Part shown: one piece after another, positions 1 through 15,921 of the stretch
How the letters are laid out: every line of letters begins with the position of its first letter
Position numbering within the stretch: position 1 is the stretch's first letter
From: Janthinobacterium saanense
GTDB taxonomy: Bacteria > Pseudomonadota > Gammaproteobacteria > Burkholderiales > Burkholderiaceae_D
Direction: 5' to 3'
NCBI RefSeq assembly: GCF_014200675.1
Contig: NZ_JACHCI010000003.1
Location: 186,001-250,000 of the forward strand
Length of the DNA stretch: 64,000 bases
Made by a program: the position numbers and the translations under genes
Notes under the pieces: model-generated
What the model saw: only the letters and a program-made list of their open reading frames with translations
Database searches by the model: none
What the model was told of the DNA's origin: nothing

Positions 1-1609
1 AGAACAGGGCGGCGATATTGCGTTGGCCGGACTGGTTTTGTGCATCGGCATAACCGGAGCTTTGCGCTTGCGAAGCCAGGGCTGTGTTCACGTCATAGTC
101 AGCCTTGTCGTGGCGGAATTCGGTGCCCACGGCGAAGCCGACTGCGCCTGCTGGCAACTGGTAGATATCGCGGCTGATTTTTGCATCGACGCCGGTGCTG
201 GTCATTTTTGCAGCCAGGAATTGGCCGTGCAACTGGGCCGCATCGATATAGGCGGCGCCGGCGGCAGACTGGTCGCCAAACGGATTGAGGATGCCGTTGG
301 CCACGCCTTGCATGATCTGGCTGTCATTGGTGTAGCCATTGACGAAGGCGCTGGCAGCCTTGCTGACCGAGTAGTTCAGACCTACATCGTAGTCCCAGCC
401 GCCGATCAGGCCTTCCGAGGACAGCACCAGACGATCCGAAATACTGGTGTCGTATTGTTCGCGCTTGCCGGCCGCGACGGTACGCCAGTTCAGCGTCAGG
501 TCGCTGCCATTCAAGCCTGCCACGCCAGGCACAGTGCCATTGCCTGGATAGTAAGGGCTGCTGGACGTCATCGACACGCCGATCAACGGCGATGGTGCGA
601 CCGCCGAGGTATCGCTGCTGCGTGCATGCAGGTATTCCACGCTGGCGGTATTGTCTTCGTTGAGCTTGAAGGTGGCCTTGCCCAGGAAGGACTCTTGCTG
701 CGTTTTCGGAATATCATCAATGAACTTGGTCGTGTCGGTGCGGCAGGTACCTTTAGAGGTAGCGATCAGGCCCGGGCCCTGGCAGCCGGTGGCCGCGTAA
801 GGGTTGCCAGTCAAGCCGTTATCGGCAAAGAAGTTGGCTGGTTGCGAGGTGCCGCTGGTGCGGTCAACGCCCTTGTTCGGAATCAGGCTGGTGTCCGAGA
901 AGCCGCGCGAGATGGCGGACAGCGCTGATTGCTTGTGCAGGTCGGCCACGCCGAAGACATTGTAGCCATCCTTGTTCAGGTCGCCATAACCGCCAGTCAC
1001 GTTCAGGCGCGACTCTTCGCCGCCACCGCTCTTGGTTGGCGTAAAGCCTTCGGCGCTGACAGTAACGCCCTTGACCGAGCGTTTGGTAATAAAGTTGATC
1101 ACGCCGCCGATGGCGTCGGTACCGTAAATGGCCGATGCGCCGTCGCGCAGGATTTCCACGCGGTCCAGGGCCGACAGCGGGATGATGTTCAAGTCAACGG
1201 AAGAGCCGTTGAATGGATGGCTGGCGATGCGGCGGCCGTTCAGCAGGACCAGGGTCTTGTCGGCGCCGATGCCGCGCAGGTCGGCGGTCGACTGGCCGCC
1301 GGTCCCCAGACCGACCGACTGGCTGCTGCCTTGCGAGCTTTGATTCATCGGGATGGTGTTCATCACGTCTTGCGCCGTCGTCAAGCCTTGCTTGATGAAG
1401 TCGTCCGCCTTGATCGAGGTGATCGGCAGTGCGGTCTGCGACGACAGGCGTTTGATGCTCGAACCGGTTACTTCCACGCGCTGCATGCTGGCCGAGTCAT
1501 CGGTGCTGCTGTCCGTTATGCTCTGCGCGCCTGCCGCGTGCATGCCTAACAGCAGGCCGCTGGCGCAGATGAGGCGCAGCGACCGCGACAGCAATTTTTC
1601 TATCATCAT
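1..1609 (-). CDS. TonB-dependent outer-membrane receptor, C-terminus cut by window edge
   Basis: The reading frame is open on the minus strand from ATG 1609 to the window edge (about 536 codons). An AGGAG ribosome site lies just upstream of the ATG. The product starts with a signal peptide (MMIEKLLSRSLRLICASG, cleavage likely after the AGAQ region). The plug domain follows, with RVEVTGSSIKR, NGRRIASHPFNGSS and GASAIYGTDAIGGVINF, the usual plug signatures. The first strands of the barrel come next. Receptors of this family bind a ligand at the cell surface and import it with energy from TonB/ExbBD. It is closely similar to the receptors at 3470-6124 and 6507-9170, so it belongs to the same tandem array. 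Roughly the last third is outside the window. The ligand is unknown; the nearby peptide transporter makes peptides a reasonable guess. Confidence 0.93.
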   Translation of the reverse strand, partial: MMIEKLLSRSLRLICASGLLLGMHAAGAQSITDSSTDDSASMQRVEVTGSSIKRLSSQTALPITSIKADDFIKQGLTTAQDVMNTIPMNQSSQGSSQSVGLGTGGQSTADLRGIGADKTLVLLNGRRIASHPFNGSSVDLNIIPLSALDRVEILRDGASAIYGTDAIGGVINFITKRSVKGVTVSAEGFTPTKSGGGEESRLNVTGGYGDLNKDGYNVFGVADLHKQSALSAISRGFSDTSLIPNKGVDRTSGTSQPANFFADNGLTGNPYAATGCQGPGLIATSKGTCRTDTTKFIDDIPKTQQESFLGKATFKLNEDNTASVEYLHARSSDTSAVAPSPLIGVSMTSSSPYYPGNGTVPGVAGLNGSDLTLNWRTVAAGKREQYDTSISDRLVLSSEGLIGGWDYDVGLNYSVSKAASAFVNGYTNDSQIMQGVANGILNPFGDQSAAGAAYIDAAQLHGQFLAAKMTSTGVDAKISRDIYQLPAGAVGFAVGTEFRHDKADYDVNTALASQAQSSGYADAQNQSGQRNIAALF

Positions 1610-2093
1610 GGCAAAACTCCTGGTCAATAATTTTTTGTGATTTATATTTGTCTACAAGCAAAGGGGTGGCCTTAGGCCTGTAACAGTGGTGCCTCGCTGT
1701 TTTTTTATGCAGGAGACGTATTCATCAAATCACCTCGCCGGTAGCAGGGTCAAGAACCAAAAAGACAAGAGTGAAAATAACCAACAGTAATAATTAATCA
1801 CAGATGTAAAGACGAATTGATGCATGGCAGACGCAGTGTCTTGCCTATGTGGAACGGCCAATTAGATGAGGCCGCATGGATGCTGGCGAGGGGATTTTGA
1901 AAGGGGCGACAAGGTCGCTTACAAATTGAAACGTTTGTGAGGAAACGCTATGGCAAGCAGAATGAAGATAGCTTACTTTTCAATTGTAAAGTTATGTAGT
2001 GACAGGCTGATGACGGAGGAAAAAAATCCACATCCGATGGTAAAGTGTACACGATGCAAGCATGTTGCACTACTTCGCGCATAATAAATATGC
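1610..2093. other. Intergenic region upstream of a receptor and of the aroG leader
   Basis: About 480 bases of AT-richer DNA between the divergently read receptor (minus) and the aroG leader (plus). It must hold the receptor promoter, but I could not pick one with confidence. A short minus-strand open frame at 1948-2133 has no good ribosome site and no recognisable features, so I do not call it a gene. Confidence 0.6.
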
Positions 2094-2123
2094 TTGCCAA
2101 GTGTTGTAATTTGGCGTTATAGT
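2094..2123 (+). promoter_or_regulatory. Promoter of the aroG leader transcript
   Basis: TTGCCA at 2094-2099 and TATAGT at 2118-2123 are separated by 18 bases, each matching the sigma-70 consensus at five of six positions. Transcription would begin near 2130, about 20 bases before the leader-peptide start codon. That is the usual geometry for an attenuated biosynthetic gene. Predicted by eye only. Confidence 0.65.
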
Positions 2124-2149
2124 CAATCAACACTCACTGGATAACTCGC

Positions 2150-2215
2150 ATGTTCGCTCGCTTTTTTACCGCCTACTTTTACTTTAGCAATTCCAACCCA
2201 ATGGCGGTGGAGTAG
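2150..2215 (+). CDS. Phe/Tyr-rich leader peptide of aroG (21 residues)
   Basis: ATG at 2150 opens a 21-codon frame ending at TAG 2213-2215. The peptide begins MFARFFTAYFYF and ends SNSNPMAVE. Within 12 residues it has five Phe and two Tyr, which is far from chance and typical of leader peptides that sense aminoacyl-tRNA supply. The last codons (2202-2208) carry TGGCGGT, identical to the 3' arm of the terminator at 2276-2282, so translation controls which hairpin forms. The ribosome site is weak (CTGGA about ten bases upstream). The peptide itself probably has no function apart from ribosome stalling. Confidence 0.8.
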   Translation: MFARFFTAYFYFSNSNPMAVE

Positions 2216-2290
2216 CGGACGGTTCACGTAGCAGCAAAAACGAGATCCCAGCAAATTCTAAAAAACCGCCACCGATGGCGGTTTTTTTTT
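2202..2290 (+). promoter_or_regulatory. Transcription attenuator of aroG (antiterminator/terminator switch)
   Basis: Segment 2202-2208 (TGGCGGT) and segment 2276-2282 (TGGCGGT) can each pair with 2265-2271 (ACCGCCA). Pairing 2265-2271 with 2276-2282 makes an intrinsic terminator; pairing with 2202-2208 destroys it. The last Phe codon (2183-2185) is 16 bases before 2202. A ribosome stalled for lack of charged Phe- or Tyr-tRNA would therefore leave 2202-2208 free and allow read-through. A ribosome reaching the stop codon would cover it and termination would follow. The sequences are seen directly; the mechanism is inferred by analogy with pheA and trp attenuators. Confidence 0.75.
2260..2290 (+). 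terminator. Intrinsic terminator within the aroG leader
   Basis: ACCGCCA (2265-2271), loop CCGA, TGGCGGT (2276-2282), flanked by an A run before and a T run through 2290, so A-T pairs can extend the stem. It lies 40 bases before the aroG start codon and is the terminating form of the attenuator. Confidence 0.85.
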
Positions 2291-2330
2291 ACCCCACGGT
2301 TTTACCTCTGTTCAAATTTTGGAGAAAATA

Positions 2331-3395
2331 ATGCCCCGCACCGATGATTTGCGTATACGCGAAATGAAGGAATTGACTCCGCCGTCCCACCTGATCCGCG
2401 AATTTGCCTGTTCGGAGTCCGCTGCGCAGACTGCTGCCGCATCGCGCGTTGCCCTGCACCGTATCCTGCATGGCCAGGACGACCGCCTGATGGTCGTCAT
2501 CGGCCCCTGTTCCATCCACGACACCAAGGCCGCGATGGAATATGCGCGCCTGCTGGTCAAGCAGCGCGCACGCTTTGCCGGCGAACTGGAAATCGTCATG
2601 CGCGTGTACTTCGAGAAGCCGCGCACCACGGTGGGCTGGAAGGGGCTGATCAATGATCCTTATATGGACAACAGTTTCCGTATCAACGATGGCTTGCGCA
2701 TGGCGCGCGAATTGTTGCGCGACATCAATGAGCTGGGCTTGCCTGCTGGCACCGAGTTTCTTGATGTGATCAGCCCGCAATACATTGCCGACCTGATCAG
2801 CTGGGGCGCGATCGGCGCGCGCACCACCGAATCGCAGGTGCACCGCGAGCTGGCTTCGGGACTGTCGTGTCCGGTAGGCTTCAAGAATGGCACGGACGGT
2901 AACGTCAAGATCGCTGTGGAAGCGATCAAGGCCGCCTCGCAGCCCCACCATTTCCTGTCTGTCACCAAGGGCGGCCACTCGGCCATCGTGTCGACCAATG
3001 GCAATGAAGATTGCCATATCATCTTGCGCGGCGGCAAGACGCCGAACTATGACGCAGCCAGTGTCGACGAGGCCTGCAAGGCTATCGCAGCGCAGGGACT
3101 GGCGTCGCGCCTGATGATCGACGCCTCGCATGCGAACAGCTCGAAAAAACCGGAAAACCAGATTCCCGTCTGCGCCGATATCGCCGCCCAGGTGGCGGCG
3201 GGCGATGAGCGCATCGTGGGCGTGATGGTTGAATCGCATCTGGTGGCGGGCCGCCAGGACTTGGTGCCAGGCAAGGAACTCATCTATGGCCAGTCCGTCA
3301 CCGATGGCTGCATCGACTGGAGCGCCAGCGTGGCCGTGCTGGAAAACCTGGCCGCCGCCGTCAAGCAGCGCCGCCTGCAGGGCGATCAGGAGTAA
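2331..3395 (+). CDS. aroG: 3-deoxy-D-arabino-heptulosonate 7-phosphate synthase (class I)
   Basis: This enzyme joins phosphoenolpyruvate and erythrose 4-phosphate to make DAHP, the first step of the shikimate pathway to Phe, Tyr and Trp. The 354-residue product matches the class I AroG/AroF/AroH type along its whole length. Diagnostic stretches are GPCSIHD, RVYFEKPRTTVGWKGLIND, GARTTESQVHRELASGLS, VGFKNGTDG and GVMVESHL, which form the PEP and metal site. I chose ATG 2331 over the in-frame TTG at 2319 because GGAG at 2321-2324 is spaced correctly for it. It sits alone on the plus strand between two minus-strand receptor genes. The Phe/Tyr leader upstream implies control by Phe and Tyr supply. 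Which of the three feedback types it is cannot be read with certainty. Confidence 0.97.
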   Translation: MPRTDDLRIREMKELTPPSHLIREFACSESAAQTAAASRVALHRILHGQDDRLMVVIGPCSIHDTKAAMEYARLLVKQRARFAGELEIVMRVYFEKPRTTVGWKGLINDPYMDNSFRINDGLRMARELLRDINELGLPAGTEFLDVISPQYIADLISWGAIGARTTESQVHRELASGLSCPVGFKNGTDGNVKIAVEAIKAASQPHHFLSVTKGGHSAIVSTNGNEDCHIILRGGKTPNYDAASVDEACKAIAAQGLASRLMIDASHANSSKKPENQIPVCADIAAQVAAGDERIVGVMVESHLVAGRQDLVPGKELIYGQSVTDGCIDWSASVAVLENLAAAVKQRRLQGDQE

Positions 3396-3409
3396 GCCAG
3401 GCCATGGTG

Positions 3410-3450
3410 AAAAAAGCCCGGAAAGCTGCGTCAGCTTGCCGGGCTTTTTG
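3410..3450. terminator. Bidirectional terminator between aroG and a receptor gene
   Basis: A GC-rich hairpin (arms around GCCCGGAAAGCTG and CAGCTTGCCGGGC) with an A run on the left and a T run on the right, so it can end both converging transcripts. It is clearly homologous to the hairpin at 6451-6483 that follows the next receptor gene. Confidence 0.85.
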
Positions 3451-3469
3451 ATTGTAAACGGACCTCGGT

Positions 3470-6124
3470 TTAGAACTTGTAAGTGGCGCGTACATAAAAA
3501 GTACGGCCCAGCGGATCCGTGAAGCGTGGATCGTAGCCGGATTGGAAGGTGCCGGTCTGGTTACTGAACGGTGGGTCTTCGTTCAGCAGGTTTTTCACGC
3601 CGACGGTCACTTCCGTGTTTTTGAAACCCGAATACGCGCTCGACAGCGACCAGACCGAGTAAGCCTTGACGCTTTGCTCGAATTCCGGATCGACATAGTT
3701 CTGGTCGCGGTAGCCGCTCATATACTTGTTCGACAGGGTGGCGTTCCAGTTCTTCAGGTTCCATTGCAGAGAAGCATTATGTCTCCAGCGGAATACCGGT
3801 GCATTGTCGCCATACACCCCCACGTTTTGCACGTATTCACCACCGCGTTCGTTCTGGTACTCATACTTCTGTACCCAGGTACCGTCGAAGTTAAAGGTGA
3901 AGTTGCCGTACTGGCTGCGTGGCAGCTTCCAGTTCAGGCCCAGGTCCAGGCCCGAGGTATGCATTTCGCCCAGGTTGTCCAGGGTCGCCAGCACGTATTC
4001 AAGCTTGGTCCCATCGGCTGAATAAATGAAGCTGTCCTTGTACTTGGCATAGTTGTCGAACAGGGTCTGTTCAGCCACGGTACCAATCTTGTCGCGCAGC
4101 TTGATATTGAAGTAGTCGAGCGACATGGTCAGCGACTTGGTCGGCTCAAGAACGATACCGGCGCTGAAGGTTTTCGATTTTTCCGGTTTGACATCCGGAT
4201 TGCCGCCCGAGCGGATATATTGCTGCGCGCCGCAGGCCACGTTGCCGTTGGCGCCAGGAATGGCCACGCCGCCCGGGCACAAACGAGGGTCGTTGTACTT
4301 ATTGGCCGTAAAGGTTTTGGTTTGCGGGCCATGCAGGTCATACAGCGTCGGTGCGCGGAAACCCGTGTTGTAGGAACTGCGCAGCAAGACCTGGTTCGTT
4401 GGCTGCCAGCGCAGGCCGACTTTCGGGTTGAAGCTGCCACCGACATCGTTGTAATGATCGTAACGCGCGGCCAGCGACAGTTCCACATCTTTGACCACCG
4501 GAACGCTCAACTCTGAAAAGATGGCGCTGATGTTGCGGCTGCCTGATTGGCTCAGGGCATCGGCGTAGCCGGAGCTCGATGCCTGGCTGGCCAGCTCCCG
4601 GTTGACGTTGTATTCCGCCTTCTCATTGCGCAGCTCGCTACCGAGCGCGAAACCGACGGCGCCCGCAGGCAAGTTGAACAGTTCACGGCTGATTTTCGCG
4701 TCCAGTGCGGTGCTCGTCATCTTGGCGCTCAGATATTCACCTTTCAGGACGGAATCCTGCAGGTAGCTCTCGCCGGCAGCGCTTTGGGCGCCAAACGGAT
4801 TCAAGATGCCATTGGCAATCCCGTCGATGATGCGCTGATCGTTCAGGTAGCCGCCGGTGAAGGCGCTGGTGGCCTTGCTGACGGAATAGCTCAGGCCGGC
4901 GTTATAGTCCCACGCACCGAGCACGCCTTCGAGCGCCAGTACCAGGCGGTCCGAGGTGCTGGTGTCGTAGCCGCTGCGCTGGCCCGATGCCACCGGGCGC
5001 CAGCTGATATCCAGATCTTGCCCGGAGAGGCCGGGTACGGCTGGCACGCCACCGCTGCCGCCTGGATAGTAAGGCGAGCTCGATGGCATCAGCAAGCCGA
5101 TGTTCGACATCGGCGGGGGCGAGATATGCGCTTGATTGCTGCTACGCGAGTGCAGGTATTCGATGGTGGCCAGGTGATCCTGGTTCAGCTTGAAGCTGGC
5201 CTTGCCCAAAAAGGATTCCTGCTGGGTTTTGGGAATCGCGTCGATGAAGGGCGTGACATCCATGGCGCAGGTGTTCTTGCCCGAGGTGTTTTTGTACAGA
5301 TTGGGGCCGACGCAGCCGGACGCGAACGCCGGGTTGCCGACCAGGCCGTTACCGGTATCGTAGAAGTTGGCCGGGAAAGTGGTGCCGCTCAGGTTATCCA
5401 CGCCCTTGTTTGGAATGTAGCCGCTGGCCGAGAAGGCACGGTCCGCCGCGCTCAGCGCAGATTGACGATGCACGTCGACGACACCGAAGACATTGAAGCC
5501 ATCTTTGTTCAGATCGCCATAGCCGCCCGACAGGTTCAGGCGCGACTCGTCGCCGCCGCCCGATTTCTGTGGCTGGTAATGTTCGACGCTCACCGAGCCG
5601 CCCTTGACCGAACGCTTGGTAATGAAATTGATCACGCCGCCGATGGCGTCGGTGCCGTAGATGGCGGAGGCGCCGTCGCGCAGCACTTCGACACGCTCCA
5701 GTGCCGAAATGGGAATGATGTTCAGATCGACGGAGGAGCCATTGAACGGGTGGCTGGCGATGCGCCGGCCGTTCAGCAGCACCAGGGTCTTGTCGCCGCC
5801 GATGCCGCGCAAATCCGCCACCGACTGGCCGCCCGTACCCGAACCGACGGACTGCGAGCTGCTTTGTGAGCTTTGATTCATGGAAATGGTCGACAGCACT
5901 TCCTGCGCCGTCGTCAAACCTTGCTTGGCGAAATCGTCCGCCTTGATCGAGGTGATCGGCAGCGCCGTTTCCGACGCCAGGCGCTTGATGCTCGACCCGG
6001 TGACTTCGACCCGCTGCATGGTGTTATCGCTTGTCTCCTGTGCATATGCGGCCTGCATGCCCAACGCCATGCTCGTGGCAAACATGAGGCGCAAAGACCG
6101 CGATATTACATTTTCTATCATCAT
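3470..6124 (-). CDS. TonB-dependent outer-membrane receptor, array member 2
   Basis: An 884-residue receptor. The signal peptide is about residues 1-28, ending in AYAQ. RVEVTGSSIKR follows, then the plug (about 40-180, with GGDKTLVLLNGRRIASHPFN and GASAIYGTDAIGGVINF) and a 22-strand type barrel ending in TFYVRATYKF with the terminal Phe needed for outer-membrane assembly. Two ATGs start the frame (6124 and 6121) behind AAGGAA. A conserved promoter lies at 6248-6276 and a terminator at 3410-3450. Its nearest relative is the next gene (6507-9170): N-terminus, plug and C-terminus are almost the same, while surface-loop stretches (about 240-300, for example) differ in sequence and length. That pattern fits duplication followed by change in ligand-contact loops. 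The ligand is unknown. Confidence 0.95.
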   Translation of the reverse strand: MMIENVISRSLRLMFATSMALGMQAAYAQETSDNTMQRVEVTGSSIKRLASETALPITSIKADDFAKQGLTTAQEVLSTISMNQSSQSSSQSVGSGTGGQSVADLRGIGGDKTLVLLNGRRIASHPFNGSSVDLNIIPISALERVEVLRDGASAIYGTDAIGGVINFITKRSVKGGSVSVEHYQPQKSGGGDESRLNLSGGYGDLNKDGFNVFGVVDVHRQSALSAADRAFSASGYIPNKGVDNLSGTTFPANFYDTGNGLVGNPAFASGCVGPNLYKNTSGKNTCAMDVTPFIDAIPKTQQESFLGKASFKLNQDHLATIEYLHSRSSNQAHISPPPMSNIGLLMPSSSPYYPGGSGGVPAVPGLSGQDLDISWRPVASGQRSGYDTSTSDRLVLALEGVLGAWDYNAGLSYSVSKATSAFTGGYLNDQRIIDGIANGILNPFGAQSAAGESYLQDSVLKGEYLSAKMTSTALDAKISRELFNLPAGAVGFALGSELRNEKAEYNVNRELASQASSSGYADALSQSGSRNISAIFSELSVPVVKDVELSLAARYDHYNDVGGSFNPKVGLRWQPTNQVLLRSSYNTGFRAPTLYDLHGPQTKTFTANKYNDPRLCPGGVAIPGANGNVACGAQQYIRSGGNPDVKPEKSKTFSAGIVLEPTKSLTMSLDYFNIKLRDKIGTVAEQTLFDNYAKYKDSFIYSADGTKLEYVLATLDNLGEMHTSGLDLGLNWKLPRSQYGNFTFNFDGTWVQKYEYQNERGGEYVQNVGVYGDNAPVFRWRHNASLQWNLKNWNATLSNKYMSGYRDQNYVDPEFEQSVKAYSVWSLSSAYSGFKNTEVTVGVKNLLNEDPPFSNQTGTFQSGYDPRFTDPLGRTFYVRATYKF

Positions 6125-9526: not shown

Positions 9527-12196
9527 TTAGAACGTGTAGCTGCCGCGTACGTAGTAGGCGCGTCCGATCGGATCCGTGTAGCGCGGGTCATAGCCTTTTT
9601 GGAACAGCGTGCCTTGGTTCGAGAATGGCGGTTGCTTGTCAAACAAGTTTTTCACACCCGCGATCAACTGATAACCTTTCCAGGTATAGCTGCCCGACAG
9701 ATTGAACAAGCTGTAGGTAGGCACATCCTGCTGGTATTGAGGGGCCACGTTGTTCTGGTCCGTATAGCCGGACTTGAACGATTGCGACAGGGTTGCGCCC
9801 CAGCTGCCCAGGCGCCAGTTGAGGGTCGCCGTGTGCTTCCAGCGGAACACGGGATTGTTGTCCGCGTAGCGGCCCACATTGTGGATGAATTCGCCGCCGC
9901 GCTCGTTCTGGTAGTCATATTTGTGGGTCCAGGTGCCGTCGACCGACAGGCTGAAATCGCCATAGCTGCTGCGTCCCAGGCGAGCGTTGACGCTGATGTC
10001 GATGCCGTCCGTCTTGACCTCGCCCAGATTGTCGTTCAAGTCGAGAATCGCATACGGCGAGCCATCGGGATTACGCAGGAACAAGGCCTTGTAGCGCTGG
10101 TAGTCGCCGAAGATGGATTGCTCGGGCAGCGCGGCAATCTTGTCCTTCAAATGAATGTTCCAGTAATCGATGGCGACGGTCACGTCCCTGGTCGGTTCCA
10201 GCACCACGCCGAAGGCAAAGGTGGTGGATTTTTCCGGTTTCAGCTTTTCATTGCCACCTTGCAGCTTGTACTGTTGGATATCGCAGTCGCGCAGCGGGTT
10301 GGAACCGGGTTGCGCCACGCCGCCCGGGCACAGCACCGGATCGCTATAGCTATCGTTGGTGTCGTTCTTGGACGGTGGCGCGTTCTTTTCAAACAGGGTA
10401 GGAGCGCGGAAACCCGTGCTGGCCGACCCGCGCAGCACCAGTTGCGGGCTGGCCTGGTAGCGTACGCCCAGTTTCGGATTGGTGGTGCTGCCCACATCGC
10501 TGTAGTGGTCGTAGCGTGCCGCCAGCTGCACTTCCAGATCCTTGACCAACGGCAGGTTGAGCTCACCAAAGAAGGCTTCGATATCGCGCGAACCGTTCTT
10601 CGACAGCGAGCCGGACAAGCCGGAACTGGCCGCCTGGCCGGCGATATCGCGGTTCACATTGAACTCGGCTTTTTCACGCCGCAGTTCGGCGCCCAGCGCG
10701 ATGGCCAGCGGTCCGCCGGCCAGCTGCGTCAGCTCGCGGCTCCCCTTGATATCGAAACCGGTGGTGGTGACCTTGGCGTTCTGCACCTCGCCACGCAGCG
10801 CCGTGCTGTCCAGGTAAGCCTTGCCGGCGGCGTCTTGCAGACCGAAAGGATTCAAGATGCCATTCAAGACGCCGGCTGCAAACGAGGCGTCCTGCACATA
10901 GCCGCCCGTAAATTTTTCCGACGACTTGCTGACCGCGTGGCTCAAGCCCGTCTTGTAATCCCAGCCGGCCAGTTCCCCTTCCAGCGCCAGTACCAGGCGA
11001 TCCGCCTTGCCGTCCGAATCGATTTGCCGTTGGCCCGCTTCGATGGGGCGCCAGTTGACGCTCAGCGGCTGTCCCGACAAGCCAGCTTGTGCCGGTACGC
11101 CACCACTATTGCCCGGATAATATTTGCTGCTGTTTGGCAGTATCAGGCCAGTTTGCGGCGGTGGCGCCGTGCGCGCCTTGACCTTGTTTTCTGAATGCAA
11201 GTATTCCACGGTGGCCAGATGGCCATCGCCGACCTTGAAAGCGCCCTTGCCGAAGAACGCCACTTGTTCCTGTGCCGGCAAATCATCGATCTGGCGCGTG
11301 TAATCCTGGCGGCAAGTGCCGTTGGCGGCCGGCGCGGACAGTGGCGGGTTGCAGCCCGTGGCCGCATACGGATTGCCGGCCAGGCCATCGCCCTTGTTGG
11401 CTGCCGCATCAAAATAATTGCCAGGGAAGGTGGTGCCGCTGGTGACAGACAAGCCGCGCGAGGGAATCACGCCCGTCCTGGAGAAATCGCGGTCTTGCGA
11501 GGTCAGCACGTTTTGCTTGTGGTAATCGACGACGCCAAAAATATTGTAGCCATCGCCGTCGAGCTTGCCGAAGCCGGTCGACAGATTCACGCGGTGCTCG
11601 CCGCCGCCCTGGTGCTGGGGCGCCACCACTTCCGCCGTGATGTTGGTGACGTTGATCGAGCGCTTGGTAATGAAGTTGATCACGCCGCCAATCGCGTCGG
11701 TGCCGTAGATGGCCGAGGCGCCGTCGCGCAGTACTTCGATACGGTCCAGTGCGGCGATGGGAATGATGTTCAGGTCGACGCTGGCGCCGTCATACGGGTG
11801 GTTGGCGATGCGCCGGCCGTTCAGCAGAACCAGCGTCTTGTCGCCGCCCAGCCCGCGCAAATCGGCGCTGGCCTGGCCGCCCGTGGGCAAGCCGCTGGTA
11901 TTGCCGCCGACGGCATTGCCGCTGCCCATGCTCGACGAGTTCGAGGGTATCTTGCTGAGTACTTCCTGGGCCGTGGTCAAGCCCTGCTTGGCGAATTCTT
12001 CGGCCTTGATGATGGACAGCGGCGTGGCCGTTTCAGAGACCAGGCGCTTGATCGATGAACCGGTGACTTCGACCCTTTGCAGGCCAGGGCTGTCGCCGCT
12101 GTCTTGCGCCAGTGCCGGCTGGCTGAACAAACCGGCGGCAAGCCCGCTGGCGCAGATCAAACGAATGGAACGGGACAAGCGTATTTCTCTAAGCAT
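9527..12196 (-). CDS. TonB-dependent outer-membrane receptor, array member 4
   Basis: An 889-residue receptor. I chose ATG 12196 rather than the TTG six bases upstream because GGAG sits eight to nine bases before the ATG. Signal peptide is about 1-31, ending ALAQ. RVEVTGSSIKR follows, then a plug with GGDKTLVLLNGRRIANHPYDGAS and GASAIYGTDAIGGVINFITKRS, and a barrel ending AYYVRGSYTF. It has the same architecture as members 2 and 3 but is clearly more diverged, including a longer Ser/Gly/Asn-rich stretch after the first plug helix (SSSMGSGNAVGGNTSG). Two hairpins at 9436-9496 end the transcript. The ligand is unknown. Confidence 0.94.
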   Translation of the reverse strand: MLREIRLSRSIRLICASGLAAGLFSQPALAQDSGDSPGLQRVEVTGSSIKRLVSETATPLSIIKAEEFAKQGLTTAQEVLSKIPSNSSSMGSGNAVGGNTSGLPTGGQASADLRGLGGDKTLVLLNGRRIANHPYDGASVDLNIIPIAALDRIEVLRDGASAIYGTDAIGGVINFITKRSINVTNITAEVVAPQHQGGGEHRVNLSTGFGKLDGDGYNIFGVVDYHKQNVLTSQDRDFSRTGVIPSRGLSVTSGTTFPGNYFDAAANKGDGLAGNPYAATGCNPPLSAPAANGTCRQDYTRQIDDLPAQEQVAFFGKGAFKVGDGHLATVEYLHSENKVKARTAPPPQTGLILPNSSKYYPGNSGGVPAQAGLSGQPLSVNWRPIEAGQRQIDSDGKADRLVLALEGELAGWDYKTGLSHAVSKSSEKFTGGYVQDASFAAGVLNGILNPFGLQDAAGKAYLDSTALRGEVQNAKVTTTGFDIKGSRELTQLAGGPLAIALGAELRREKAEFNVNRDIAGQAASSGLSGSLSKNGSRDIEAFFGELNLPLVKDLEVQLAARYDHYSDVGSTTNPKLGVRYQASPQLVLRGSASTGFRAPTLFEKNAPPSKNDTNDSYSDPVLCPGGVAQPGSNPLRDCDIQQYKLQGGNEKLKPEKSTTFAFGVVLEPTRDVTVAIDYWNIHLKDKIAALPEQSIFGDYQRYKALFLRNPDGSPYAILDLNDNLGEVKTDGIDISVNARLGRSSYGDFSLSVDGTWTHKYDYQNERGGEFIHNVGRYADNNPVFRWKHTATLNWRLGSWGATLSQSFKSGYTDQNNVAPQYQQDVPTYSLFNLSGSYTWKGYQLIAGVKNLFDKQPPFSNQGTLFQKGYDPRYTDPIGRAYYVRGSYTF

Positions 12197-12470
12197 GTTC
12201 AAGACTCCAGATAAAGCGGTTGGCTAAAGGGGCAAGAACGGTCATCCGGGGTGGCATGTCCGAGATCATTGAAAAGTGGGGTTAAATTGTTTATATCTTT
12301 TCAATTTCTCAAATGTAATAAATTGGAAATTATCTTGTCAACAACTGTGTGTGGATTGTGCAGTTAAACAACAGATAGCGATATTTAGCATGATTTTAGA
12401 CAAATGATTATCAAATATACTTATTTTATTTTTATCTATGCTTGGCCGCACAGGATGGCGGCGCCGTAAA
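12197..12470. other. Intergenic region upstream of receptor 9527-12196
   Basis: An AT-rich gap with no gene. A weak minus-strand promoter candidate has TTGACA at 12336-12341 and TTACAT at 12313-12318, 17 bases apart. It resembles the better-supported promoters of members 2 and 3 only in the -35 box. Confidence 0.35.
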
Positions 12471-12498
12471 AAAAGGCGGTGATTGCTCACCGCCTTTT
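12471..12498 (-). terminator. Intrinsic terminator of receptor 12518-15316
   Basis: Arms AAAAGGCGGTGA (12471-12482) and TCACCGCCTTTT (12487-12498) pair over 12 bases around TTGC. On the minus strand the stem is followed by more T. Confidence 0.9.
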
Positions 12499-12517
12499 GT
12501 TTGGGACCTGTAAGCGC

Positions 12518-15316
12518 TTAGAAGAACTTGTAGCTGGCGCCCACTTTGAAGTAGCGTCCGATGGCGCCGCTCGCATCCATCGGGTTGTAGCTCATGCCGC
12601 CGTAGGTCAATGGATCAAGCGGTGCAATCTTGTCGGTCACGTTATTGATCGACGCGTACAGTTGCAGCTGCTTGCTGACGTTCCAGCGGGTCGACAGATC
12701 GAGCGTGGTGAAGGAAGCGATCTTGCAACCGTTAGGTGCATCGGCGCCGTTCGCCAGCTTGGAAGCACAGCCTGCACCTTCATACAGGATGTTTTTCATG
12801 TCGGAGCGATAGTTCAGCACGCCGCTGAAATTCCAGTTGCCGATGTCCCACGAGCCGGTGAGATTGATCTTGTCTTTCGGCGTACCGGCGCAGTTGGACG
12901 TGTCGCAGTTGCCATGCGTGCCGGCGAACTGGTATTGCACCGTGGCGGACTCGGCGCGTACCCACGAAGCGACGTGGCTCCAGGTCAGGCCGAACGTGGC
13001 GCGGCCGTAGTCGCCCAGGCGCACGCGCTGCTTGACGTCCAGGTCGATACCCTTGACTTCCGTGAAGCTGGAATTGCGGTAGGGCGCCTTGGTGATCAGC
13101 AAGGTGCCCGTGTTCGGCACGACCACGCCATTGATCGTCAGGTTGTTGTCGGCGCGGATAGCGGTCGGCAGGGCGGCCGCTTCGTTGTACGGCAGCGGAT
13201 TGATCTCGTTGCTGCGCTTGATCTTCCAGCCATCGAGCGACAGGCTGGTATCGTTGAACGGATCCCATACCAGGCCCAGGGTGTAGCCTTTCGATTTTTC
13301 TGGCTGCAAGTTGGGATCGCCGATCTTCACGGCCGCGACCTGGATGGCGCAGTCGGTCAGCGTCGCGCCGGCCAGTGGCTTGCCGTTCGGGCAGCGGATC
13401 GGATCGCTCACGGTCGAGGTGCCCGTCGATTGCGAATCGGCATTGCTTTCTGCAGGGCCCGGTGCACGGAAACCTTCCGAGTAGGTGCCGCGCAGTGCAA
13501 AGGTTTTCAGCGGGGTCCACTTGGCGCCCAGCTTCGGCGTGGTCGACGAGAAACGGTCATATTTGTCGTAACGCAGAGCGCCCGACAGTTCGACCGTCTT
13601 GATCACCGGCGCCAGCACTTCGACGAAGACGGCCGATACCTTGCTGTCGCCCTTGGCTGCCACATAGCTGGAGTTGATCGAACCGTCTTGCGTGCCGGAC
13701 AGGGAAGGATTGTCCAGCTTGTCACGGCGATGTTCGGCGCCGACTGCCAGGCCCAGGGCGCCGCCCGGCAATTGCATCAGTTCCCGCGAGGCCTTGAAGT
13801 CGACGATGTCGAGTTTGGTGGTGGAATCGGAGGTCGCATTCGTCACCATGGCCGCGTACAGCGAGGCGGGATTCTTGCCTGCCTGTGCACCGATATAGTA
13901 GGGGAAGTATTTGCTGTTCGGATTGCCCAGGGCATCTTTGACGACCGCCATATTGAGCATATTGCTGTAATCGAGATGCAGCTTCGATTCCGAATGCGTG
14001 TAGCCCGCATCGTAGTCCCAGCCCATGGCCGATCCCTTGATGCCCAGCACGATGCGGTTGAATTCGTTGTTGGCCTGGCGCGTGCTTGGGCCGACATCAA
14101 ATGCCTGGTAGCGCACGCGTACCGGTACGCCGTACGGATTCTGCGGGTGGTTCGCTGCCAGTACGATGGTGGTGCCAGCGCCGGAGCCGTAATTGATCAC
14201 GCCGTTAGGATTGGAGGCGTTGGGCGGGAAAGCGATGGTCGGCGTGATCGATGGCGGGATCAGCGTAAATGCCGTATTGCGTTTCGAGTAGCCTGCTTCC
14301 GCATAGACCTGGGTGTCGGAATTGACTTGCCAGGTGCCGCGCGTGTACAGATTGACCGATTCTATGCTCGGTTGCATCGAACGGAACTGGTCGTGGTGCC
14401 ACAGGCAGCCGCCTTTCGGGTCTTGTGGCGACGATACCGACAGGGTGGAGCAGCCTGGCAGCGACACGTAGTTGAGCGTATTCGGATCGCGGATCAGGCC
14501 AGTCGGCGCGGCATTCGCGTCGTTGGTGCCATTGATGTAGCCGCCGGCGAACTGCGTGCCGATCGGGTAGCCATATGGACGCAGATCAGCCTTACCTATC
14601 CATTTGCGGTCGGAGCGGTCCTTGTTCATCAACATGTCCGACTTGGTGTATTCGGCGTTGATCACAAAGTTGTATTTGTCTTCGTCCAGATTGCCCTTGC
14701 CGAAGGTCAGCGAGGCACGATGCTGCTTGTCATCGCTATAACCGGAAATGCCGGTATCGGCTTTCAAGGTCAGGCCTTCGAAGTCCTTGCGCAGGATGAT
14801 GTTGACCACGCCCGCGATGGCGTCGGCGCCATAGGTGGACGAGGCGCCGTCTTTCAGGATCTCGATACGTTCGACGATCTGCATCGGCACGGTAGAGAGG
14901 TCGGTGAAGCTTTTTTGTCCATCGTCGGCACGGGCGAACGGCGCCATGCGGCGGCCATTCAGCAGTACCAGGGTCGAGGTGGCGCCCAGGCCGCGCAGCG
15001 AAATGGCGGTCGAGCCAGCGGCGAAGCCGTTACCGAAACCGGTCGGCAGGGAACCGGCGCCATCGGCTGTCAGCGTCTGCAGGTATTCGGCGACGGTGGC
15101 CTTGCCTGATTTCAGCAAGTCGTCGCGGCTGATGATTTGAACCGGTGACGCGGTTTCCGCCGTGGCCCTTTTGATGCTCGAGCCGGTAATTTCCACACGC
15201 TGGACATTGGCGTCTTGCGCCATTGCCGGTGCTGCTATCAGACCCAGACTGAGCGCTGCAATGCTGCCTGAAAAAATCAGGCGTACGGAGCGTGATATTA
15301 CTGTTTCCATCATCAT
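12518..15316 (-). CDS. TonB-dependent outer-membrane receptor, array member 5 (divergent)
   Basis: A 932-residue receptor. Three ATGs in a row start the frame (15316, 15313, 15310); the TTG further upstream is less likely. The ribosome site is poor (GAG), so the exact start is uncertain by a few residues. Signal peptide ends near PAMAQ. RVEITGSSIKR, the plug (TSTLVLLNGRRMAPFARADD, GASSTYGADAIAGVVNIILRKDF) and the barrel ending FKVGASYKFF follow. It belongs to the same broad family as its neighbours but is the most distant, with paired cysteines in predicted loops (CNTNC-like spacing near GNCDTSNCAG). It lies next to the peptide ABC transporter, which starts about 600 bases away in the opposite direction. 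Confidence 0.94.
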   Translation of the reverse strand: MMMETVISRSVRLIFSGSIAALSLGLIAAPAMAQDANVQRVEITGSSIKRATAETASPVQIISRDDLLKSGKATVAEYLQTLTADGAGSLPTGFGNGFAAGSTAISLRGLGATSTLVLLNGRRMAPFARADDGQKSFTDLSTVPMQIVERIEILKDGASSTYGADAIAGVVNIILRKDFEGLTLKADTGISGYSDDKQHRASLTFGKGNLDEDKYNFVINAEYTKSDMLMNKDRSDRKWIGKADLRPYGYPIGTQFAGGYINGTNDANAAPTGLIRDPNTLNYVSLPGCSTLSVSSPQDPKGGCLWHHDQFRSMQPSIESVNLYTRGTWQVNSDTQVYAEAGYSKRNTAFTLIPPSITPTIAFPPNASNPNGVINYGSGAGTTIVLAANHPQNPYGVPVRVRYQAFDVGPSTRQANNEFNRIVLGIKGSAMGWDYDAGYTHSESKLHLDYSNMLNMAVVKDALGNPNSKYFPYYIGAQAGKNPASLYAAMVTNATSDSTTKLDIVDFKASRELMQLPGGALGLAVGAEHRRDKLDNPSLSGTQDGSINSSYVAAKGDSKVSAVFVEVLAPVIKTVELSGALRYDKYDRFSSTTPKLGAKWTPLKTFALRGTYSEGFRAPGPAESNADSQSTGTSTVSDPIRCPNGKPLAGATLTDCAIQVAAVKIGDPNLQPEKSKGYTLGLVWDPFNDTSLSLDGWKIKRSNEINPLPYNEAAALPTAIRADNNLTINGVVVPNTGTLLITKAPYRNSSFTEVKGIDLDVKQRVRLGDYGRATFGLTWSHVASWVRAESATVQYQFAGTHGNCDTSNCAGTPKDKINLTGSWDIGNWNFSGVLNYRSDMKNILYEGAGCASKLANGADAPNGCKIASFTTLDLSTRWNVSKQLQLYASINNVTDKIAPLDPLTYGGMSYNPMDASGAIGRYFKVGASYKFF

Positions 15317-15921
15317 TCTCAAAAACCCCGAAGTGATCGTGATTACCCGCTATGCGGGTGTCACTGTTTGTATGAAACACGATTGCTGCGTCGGCAATCA
15401 CTATGGAAAAAAACGGCGTCTTTTTAGTTGCCGCTTTTTCATAAGACCACTAGGCGAGAAGTGCTGTCAACGAGCAACTATGTCAATTCATGTTGAAAAC
15501 AACACTCAAATTTGTAACCTTTGACCATTGTTATAAATGTAAATATTTTTATGTTGCGACGCAATATTCGTATTCATCATAGATATCAAAAAGATTTCTA
15601 TTCTTGCGTATAAGGGTTTTTACCAATACGCGGCCATGGCGAAAAAATGCTGCACTATTGCGGCGCAGCAAATTGATATCGTGCTGGGACGCGTGGTGAT
15701 GCCGCTGACCGGAAGAGGCTGGTCTTTTCGCCCGGCGGGCAAAATATGCGTTATCGTTACGCGTTTTTCAGGCAGTCAGGACACCGGGCTTGTCGAGCTG
15801 GAAACAAGGCATAGATCTTGCGTAAATGGACTGGTTTTAGCGGCTCTTCCCTGTATCCCAGGGTAATGCCAGTAAAGTGCACCAATACGGTGCAGCAGAC
15901 AATCAAGATGAAGGGTATGAC
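15317..15921. other. 600-base divergent intergenic region between receptor array and peptide transporter
   Basis: No convincing gene. It must contain the promoters of the receptor at 12518-15316 (minus) and of the peptide transporter operon (plus). A short palindrome TTGCGACGCAA (15553-15563) could be an operator, but nothing else supports that. An open frame at 15636-15866 encodes 76 residues with no recognisable features and poor ribosome-site context, so I leave it out. Confidence 0.5.

Follow-up and report, generated by a model that had tools for sequence, protein, structure and literature searches.

A predicted Phe/Tyr-responsive transcription attenuator upstream of the DAHP synthase gene aroG in Janthinobacterium saanense and related bacteria

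The region in front of aroG in Janthinobacterium saanense in all likelihood forms a ribosome-mediated transcription attenuator that would sense charged tRNA-Phe and tRNA-Tyr. A short frame with a cluster of Phe and Tyr codons, followed by an intrinsic terminator, is located between a putative promoter and the gene, an arrangement consistent with attenuation by a leader peptide. As a consequence, the first enzyme of aromatic amino-acid synthesis would very probably be produced in larger amounts when Phe or Tyr is short. The parts of the attenuator and their spacing were located in the window (the whole stretch of 64 kb analyzed here), and their conservation was established in relatives from the Oxalobacteraceae, the Burkholderiaceae and neighboring groups, for which a genome scan provided the best 80 of 587 aroG loci.

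Results

Architecture of the aroG leader region

The features of the region are listed in Table 1.

Table 1. Positions of the predicted regulatory elements and of aroG in the window.
Feature	Position	Strand	Basis
Sigma-70-type promoter TTGCCA-18-TATAGT	2094-2123	+	predicted from sequence
Shine-Dalgarno-like GGA of the leader frame, weak	2139-2141	+	sequence
Leader peptide frame MFARFFTAYFYFSNSNPMAVE, 21 codons and TAG	2150-2215	+	sequence; kept in relatives
Control codons: Phe 2, 5, 6, 10, 12; Tyr 9, 11	2153-2185	+	sequence
Region 1, possible partner of 2203-2212 (leader/protector hairpin)	2164-2173, in codons 5-8	+	RNAfold
Region 2, antiterminator 5' arm TGGCGGT	2202-2208	+	sequence; GGCGG in 80/80 leaders
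Intrinsic terminator; stem 2260-2271/2276-2287 (12 pairs), loop 2272-2275, nine T 2282-2290	2260-2290	+	
Region 3, ACCGCCA; partner is region 2 (antiterminator) or region 4 (terminator)	2265-2271	+	sequence, RNAfold
Region 4, 3' arm of the terminator	2276-2282	+	identical to region 2
aroG ribosome site GGAG	2321-2324	+	sequence
aroG, 3-deoxy-7-phosphoheptulonate (DAHP) synthase, 354 aa	2331-3395	+	NCBIfam NF006723, TIGR00034

AroG scored 584 bits against NF006723, for which the cutoff is 568, and also matched TIGR00034; its nearest relatives are from Janthinobacterium species, with 96-97% identity. Upstream, the closest long frame that resembles a gene (2-1627) lies on the minus strand and is divergent from aroG. 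The terminator is therefore not the end of an upstream gene and stands between the promoter and aroG. Long minus-strand frames flank aroG on both sides (2-1627, 3470-6124, 9527-12202 and 12518-15322), which, we assume, resemble TonB-dependent receptor paralogues. Judged from the promoter-like sequence, the 5' end of the RNA would be located approximately 20 nt upstream of the leader start, near 2130. When the 80 nt upstream of the leader ATG were searched, the exact string TTGCCA-N18-TATAGT was found in 36 of 79 loci, and 29 of these 36 copies lie at a distance of 23-27 nt from that start codon. When scored by best match, 37/79 loci reached 10 of 12, compared with 0.6% of mononucleotide shuffles.

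An earlier sequence-only reading had described a leader of 21 codons with five Phe and two Tyr codons, seven in all, among its first 12, a segment near its end identical to the 3' arm of a terminator, competition of both for one 5' arm, and a spacing of 16 bases behind the last Phe codon. All of these were confirmed on the sequence: TGGCGGT of region 2 recurs as region 4, both copies are complementary to ACCGCCA of region 3, and bases 2186-2201 separate the last Phe codon (2183-2185) from region 2, the end of which is followed after 4 nt by the stop codon. A GGA within 16 nt upstream of the leader ATG was present in only 34 of the 80 leaders (79 from relatives and the window's own copy), and therefore argues weakly for a leader ribosome site. 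The aromatic codons stay in frame with synonymous changes across leaders, and the frame in the window may be translated.

Predicted RNA structures

Folding of 2130-2300 with RNAfold gave the 12-pair terminator hairpin and a leader hairpin (2164-2173/2203-2212), the latter being absent from the earlier reading, with z = -3.63 and none of 200 shuffles as stable. In a simple terminator scan, the hairpin at 2260-2290 appeared solely on the minus strand; the likely reason is that on the plus strand the extended stem consumes the T-run. The antiterminator is predicted to be mutually exclusive with the terminator. In the window, its energy was -19.1 kcal/mol versus -15.7 kcal/mol for the terminator, while over 79 loci RNAfold gave means of about -22 kcal/mol (2:3 form) and about -17 kcal/mol (terminator). 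The folded antiterminator from region 2 to region 3 is longer than seven bases, because bases 3' of region 2 pair with bases just 5' of region 3. The terminator was recovered by RNAalifold from a 57-row alignment, and a sub-stretch gave only five antiterminator pairs. A conserved 1:2 helix was not recovered from this alignment, and thus the role of region 1 is uncertain. Furthermore, many Oxalobacteraceae share a well-conserved segment 3' of the leader stop (2216-2235, alignment columns 102-125), GCGG..GGTTCACGTAGCAGC, for which the antiterminator stem accounts only partly.

A search of window positions 1500-3500 against Rfam gave no family at the gathering score. Four matches below it (E ≤ 1), each overlapping the terminator, were set aside. 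Neither a T-box nor a Phe leader was among them, and the sole amino-acid leader was Leu_leader, at 23.4 bits against a gathering score of 50 (E = 0.058).

Proposed mechanism

The switch predicted from this arrangement may be described as follows. RNA polymerase would start near 2130, and a ribosome would begin translation of the leader. A shortage of charged tRNA-Phe or tRNA-Tyr would stall the ribosome on the Phe/Tyr codons, with its front edge short of region 2. Region 2, being free, would then pair with region 3 once the latter is transcribed, the terminator would be blocked and aroG would be transcribed. When Phe and Tyr are plentiful, the ribosome would reach the stop codon at 2213-2215 and cover region 2, so that region 3 would pair with region 4 and transcription would stop at the T-run, short of aroG. 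Production of the pathway's entry enzyme would thereby follow the demand for its end products. With the usual footprint sizes of ribosomes, the spacing fits this scheme, since region 2 would be left free at the stall and covered at the stop.

Conservation of the leader and its pairings

In 79 of the best 80 of 587 loci, aroG is preceded by a short frame rich in aromatic codons and then a terminator. It should be noted that the alignments and the covariance model, the latter made from 53 leaders, were built from loci picked for their aroG. The exception (L018) is an aroG of the Oxalobacteraceae without leader, in which an open coding frame ends approximately 40 nt upstream of the gene. In this metagenome-assembled genome (L018, 900-1500), as also in L139, aroG follows close behind a coding frame, and both are apparent losses of the attenuator. 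The sequence-only reading would have been abandoned if the frame and pairings were not kept in relatives; it survived this comparison at 79/80 loci, with GGCGG in all of them, while the covariation of both pairings that it had sought gave way to an invariant core.

The shared segment GGCGG occurs in all 80 leaders, and in 76 of them lies 11, 14 or 17 nt from the last aromatic codon. In four leaders (L010, L016, L034 and L069) it is read in a different phase, which indicates that the RNA segment was retained and the peptide end lost. In the 59 Oxalobacteraceae-type leaders, GGCGGT, which fixes its Ala codon, is without exception, whereas in aroG (58 of the 59 loci) not one of 19 conserved Ala codons is uniform (best 90%). 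All five positions of the region 3 core can pair with regions 2 and 4 in 80/80 leaders, one via G-T, and the flanking pairs of 2:3 are not alike in the two families. For the terminator, two-sided changes were observed at two flanking pairs (A-T in 76 and G-C in 4; A-T in 66 and T-A in 6). Antiterminator covariation was sought within the Burkholderiaceae and not found, its eight pairs never varying, and the terminator of this family displayed no two-sided change; covariation is silent here because neither helix changes on both sides. For the 2:3 core, the case is built instead on its lack of variation, its spacing and its retention in different reading phases. In one of the phase-shifted leaders (L069, 1306-1458, Candidatus Burkholderia humilis), the frame is shifted after KFYFYF and reads through the terminator, and this leader may represent an eroding attenuator or a sequencing error.

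Control codons

Aromatic residues make up 31% of all residues in the 80 leaders. Phe is encoded by TTT 217 times and by TTC 67 times in the 59 Oxalobacteraceae-type leaders, the inverse of the preference in aroG of the same set (TTT 74, TTC 305; 58/59 loci used). At least one Phe codon is present in each of the 80 leaders and in each of 34 leaders from other families, described below. Tyr is present in 57/59 Oxalobacteraceae-type, 21/21 Burkholderiaceae and 32/34 other leaders. Trp, counted only upstream of GGCGG, was found in 11/59 Oxalobacteraceae-type and 20/21 Burkholderiaceae leaders, and, counted anywhere in the frame, in 15/34 leaders of other families. The typical motif of the Oxalobacteraceae type is [FY]F[YW]FS, and Burkholderiaceae leaders resemble MSAKFYFYFFW[HY]L[RK]PLADREG; the C-terminal peptide is not alike between families.

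Distribution across the order and class

The covariance model gave one strong match in the genome of the window (134 bits, the next best being 25), and none at its AroG paralogue of 51% identity. Among 300 genomes of the order, 67 had a match at E ≤ 0.01, including 9 of 10 in the family of the window. From the 58 matched genomes outside that family, 40 matches were fetched and 18 left out. Thirty-four of the 40, belonging to 12 families, are located 160-292 nt upstream of AroG (62-83% identity), and all 34 have a frame at the match with at least four aromatic residues in 12 codons (at least five in 33/34). Eight of the 18 unfetched matches (G022, G093, G102, G113, G137, G138, G152 and G158) are just upstream of AroG by coordinates. 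The other six fetched matches, without AroG in the stretch, were set aside (L119, L127, L131, L133, L134 and L136). As the E-value of L119 (3.3e-5) shows, a model E-value near 1e-5 cannot be relied on by itself, and GGCGG/CCGCC stems occur also in matches without AroG. In the reverse complement of L127 (G117, about 228-345), a leader-like frame MVTFSVVYNVYFYWYRSSGGAKGC precedes a GCCGCC/GGCGGC hairpin, and the frame downstream gave no significant Pfam match; this could be a comparable leader that serves a different gene.

A scan of 114 genomes of the class yielded three matches. Besides the genome of the window, these were another member of the order and a member of a family outside it; when 60 genomes of this outside family were searched, 14 had a match. 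The four of them that were checked all sit upstream of AroG, with leaders that include MNAARASFYFWYYFPKPLAEEGLRSP. Four of these leaders (L219-L221 and L137, ..PLAEEGLRSP) closely resemble L102 and L109 of family f4 (..PLAEEGTRSI and ..PLAEEGLRAY), and aroG together with its leader may have been transferred between the two families.

AroG was also surveyed in 150 genomes of the order, of which 101 have a copy of at least 59% identity; 15 further genomes, with best copies of 49-55% identity, were left out of the leader survey. A model match lies just upstream of AroG in 30 of the 101. Direct inspection of the other 71 best copies (59-88% identity) added five leaders, four of them in one family; among the rest, 65 were without a leader and L190 displayed a terminator only. 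One of the inspected stretches, L141, spanned no more than 290 nt. In L183, L184 and L198, aromatic frames close to AroG overlap a terminator instead of preceding it and were left uncounted. In total, the leader is carried by 35 of 101 sampled genomes with a close AroG, and its distribution is therefore broad but patchy. Among second AroG copies of at least 58% identity, no leader was found in the 9 examined of 15 listed. The element is thus not confined to the Oxalobacteraceae, being present in 12 families of the order besides that of the window and in one family outside it.

Discussion

Alternative explanations

Chance and a simpler role of the hairpin have to be considered together. On both strands of the window, seven short-frame starts have at least six Phe, Tyr or Trp in 12 codons, and a terminator follows within 90 nt after two of the seven, namely the aroG leader and a start at 12404. 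The latter (12404-12500), with the frame MIIKYTYFIFIYAWPHRMAAP, carries GGCGG close to the end of that frame, directly upstream of a terminator-like hairpin. It was rejected as a leader, since no plus-strand gene lies behind it and the hairpin sits where the minus-strand frame 12518-15322 ends. With two such cases among seven, a single sequence cannot exclude chance, which the conservation in relatives removes. A constitutive terminator that sets a low level of aroG, or a short independent RNA, with an incidental small frame, would find support in this mimic and in the low count of Shine-Dalgarno-like GGA. Nevertheless, the in-frame aromatic codons, shared segment and spacing are conserved over many genera and the use of TTT and TTC is inverted between leaders and aroG, and this explanation is highly improbable. 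A riboswitch, a T-box or a protein-bound leader in place of ribosome stalling is scarcely credible: no supporting feature was found, the Rfam result speaks against it, and what is conserved consists of codons and a pairing segment. The attenuated transcript or its peptide might also act in trans, as the leader peptide peTrpL of Sinorhizobium meliloti is described to do (PMC7298713). The predicted terminated RNA is short, at about 160 nt, and the segment behind the stop is well conserved, both of which would suit such a role. However, part of that segment pairs inside the predicted antiterminator stem and the C-terminal peptide varies between families, so that an additional action in trans is very unlikely.

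A closer competitor keeps the same attenuator and places effective control with Phe alone, with Tyr, and Trp in relatives, as passengers or minor inputs. Phe is the commonest control codon (375 versus 180 Tyr and 35 Trp over the 80 leaders), each Oxalobacteraceae-type leader has at least three, and two of the 59 are without Tyr. In addition, the Phe-Tyr-Phe leader upstream of aroF in Corynebacterium glutamicum answers limitation of Phe and not of Tyr, as summarized in a review (PMC11802643). On these grounds control by Phe alone is a possible reading, if a somewhat doubtful one. Against it, Tyr codons stand upstream of region 2 in 57/59 Oxalobacteraceae-type and 21/21 Burkholderiaceae leaders, often alternating with Phe near region 2. 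Sensing of Tyr as well as Phe by the aroG attenuator is plausible on this codon pattern, and Tyr and Trp codons may both matter. Leaders that read several amino acids are known elsewhere, in the ilv and thr operons. Tentatively, one widespread attenuator family could read all aromatic end products, its specificity being retuned by swaps of control codons, with Phe/Tyr in most Oxalobacteraceae and Trp added in most Burkholderiaceae and in the family outside the order; a shortage of any of them would then open aroG.

Relation to known leaders

Phe-responsive attenuation by leader peptides is well established for pheA (pheL) and pheST of E. coli, which differ from aroG as genes of a later pathway step and of a tRNA synthetase. 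Both attenuators are named in PMC11802643. The nearest precedent is the AroR leader of C. glutamicum, predicted upstream of the DAHP synthase gene aroF (PMC4046766), termed a translational regulatory leader (PMC7356990) and treated as ribosome-stalling attenuation in the review PMC11802643; the attenuator is credited to Neshat et al. 2014. As described in the review, it shares with the present element an aromatic leader peptide before a DAHP synthase gene and the attenuation by stalling that is predicted here. By the same description, it belongs to an Actinobacterium and has Phe-Tyr-Phe, compared with seven aromatic codons in 12 here. An attenuator of a DAHP synthase gene is therefore not new as such. 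The uORFC-13-1 motif of Acholeplasma aroF likewise combines a candidate Phe-coding uORF, with at least one Phe codon, and a terminator upstream of a DAHP synthase gene (PMC8632094). That source gives 24 representatives, only from Acholeplasma and environmental DNA, which by description sets the motif apart, and mentions that a similar mechanism was once hypothesized for E. coli aroF.

Putative attenuators have also been collected for Vibrio, where the gene called aroAI-alpha is presumably a DAHP synthase gene. In Table 7 of PMC1173090, whose nomenclature this is, attenuators from the Merino database are given for several aromatic operons, including aroAI-alpha_Y > tyrA in two Vibrio species. 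These are terminator/antiterminator predictions with another gene order and in other bacteria, and the passages of PMC1173090 on them describe no leader peptide. Two uORFs with Phe and Tyr, predicted as regulatory for shikimate genes (PMC6429828, Fig. 6b), resemble the aroG leader as short Phe/Tyr frames tied to this pathway. In Burkholderia cenocepacia, 82 short 5'UTRs were attributed to attenuation or processing (PMC5688073), which shows the presence of attenuated leaders in a related genus; aroG and the word leader were not found in the main text of that paper, Table S3 being outside this scope. In a regulon survey, TyrR and TrpR are discussed for aroG, and attenuation is named for trp and pheA. 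Among the PMC matches listed, with subscription papers and supplements outside the scope, no aroG leader of beta-proteobacteria was recognized. The earlier reading knew of no attenuation described for a DAHP synthase gene in Oxalobacteraceae; the beta-proteobacterial form is apparently undescribed so far, but the mechanism has its precedent in C. glutamicum and the element extends beyond that family.

Significance

The aroG element would represent a broad proteobacterial addition to the known cases of leader-peptide attenuation. It would provide the committed step of aromatic amino-acid synthesis, in many beta-proteobacteria, with a mode of control that can be tested and has apparently not been described; the textbook scheme, with TyrR and TrpR, is that of E. 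coli. Natural differences in control codons between relatives, Phe/Tyr versus Phe/Tyr/Trp, amount to a ready-made experiment on how leader peptides come to sense particular amino acids. Furthermore, the attenuator would be a simple target for engineering the overproduction of aromatics in such bacteria.
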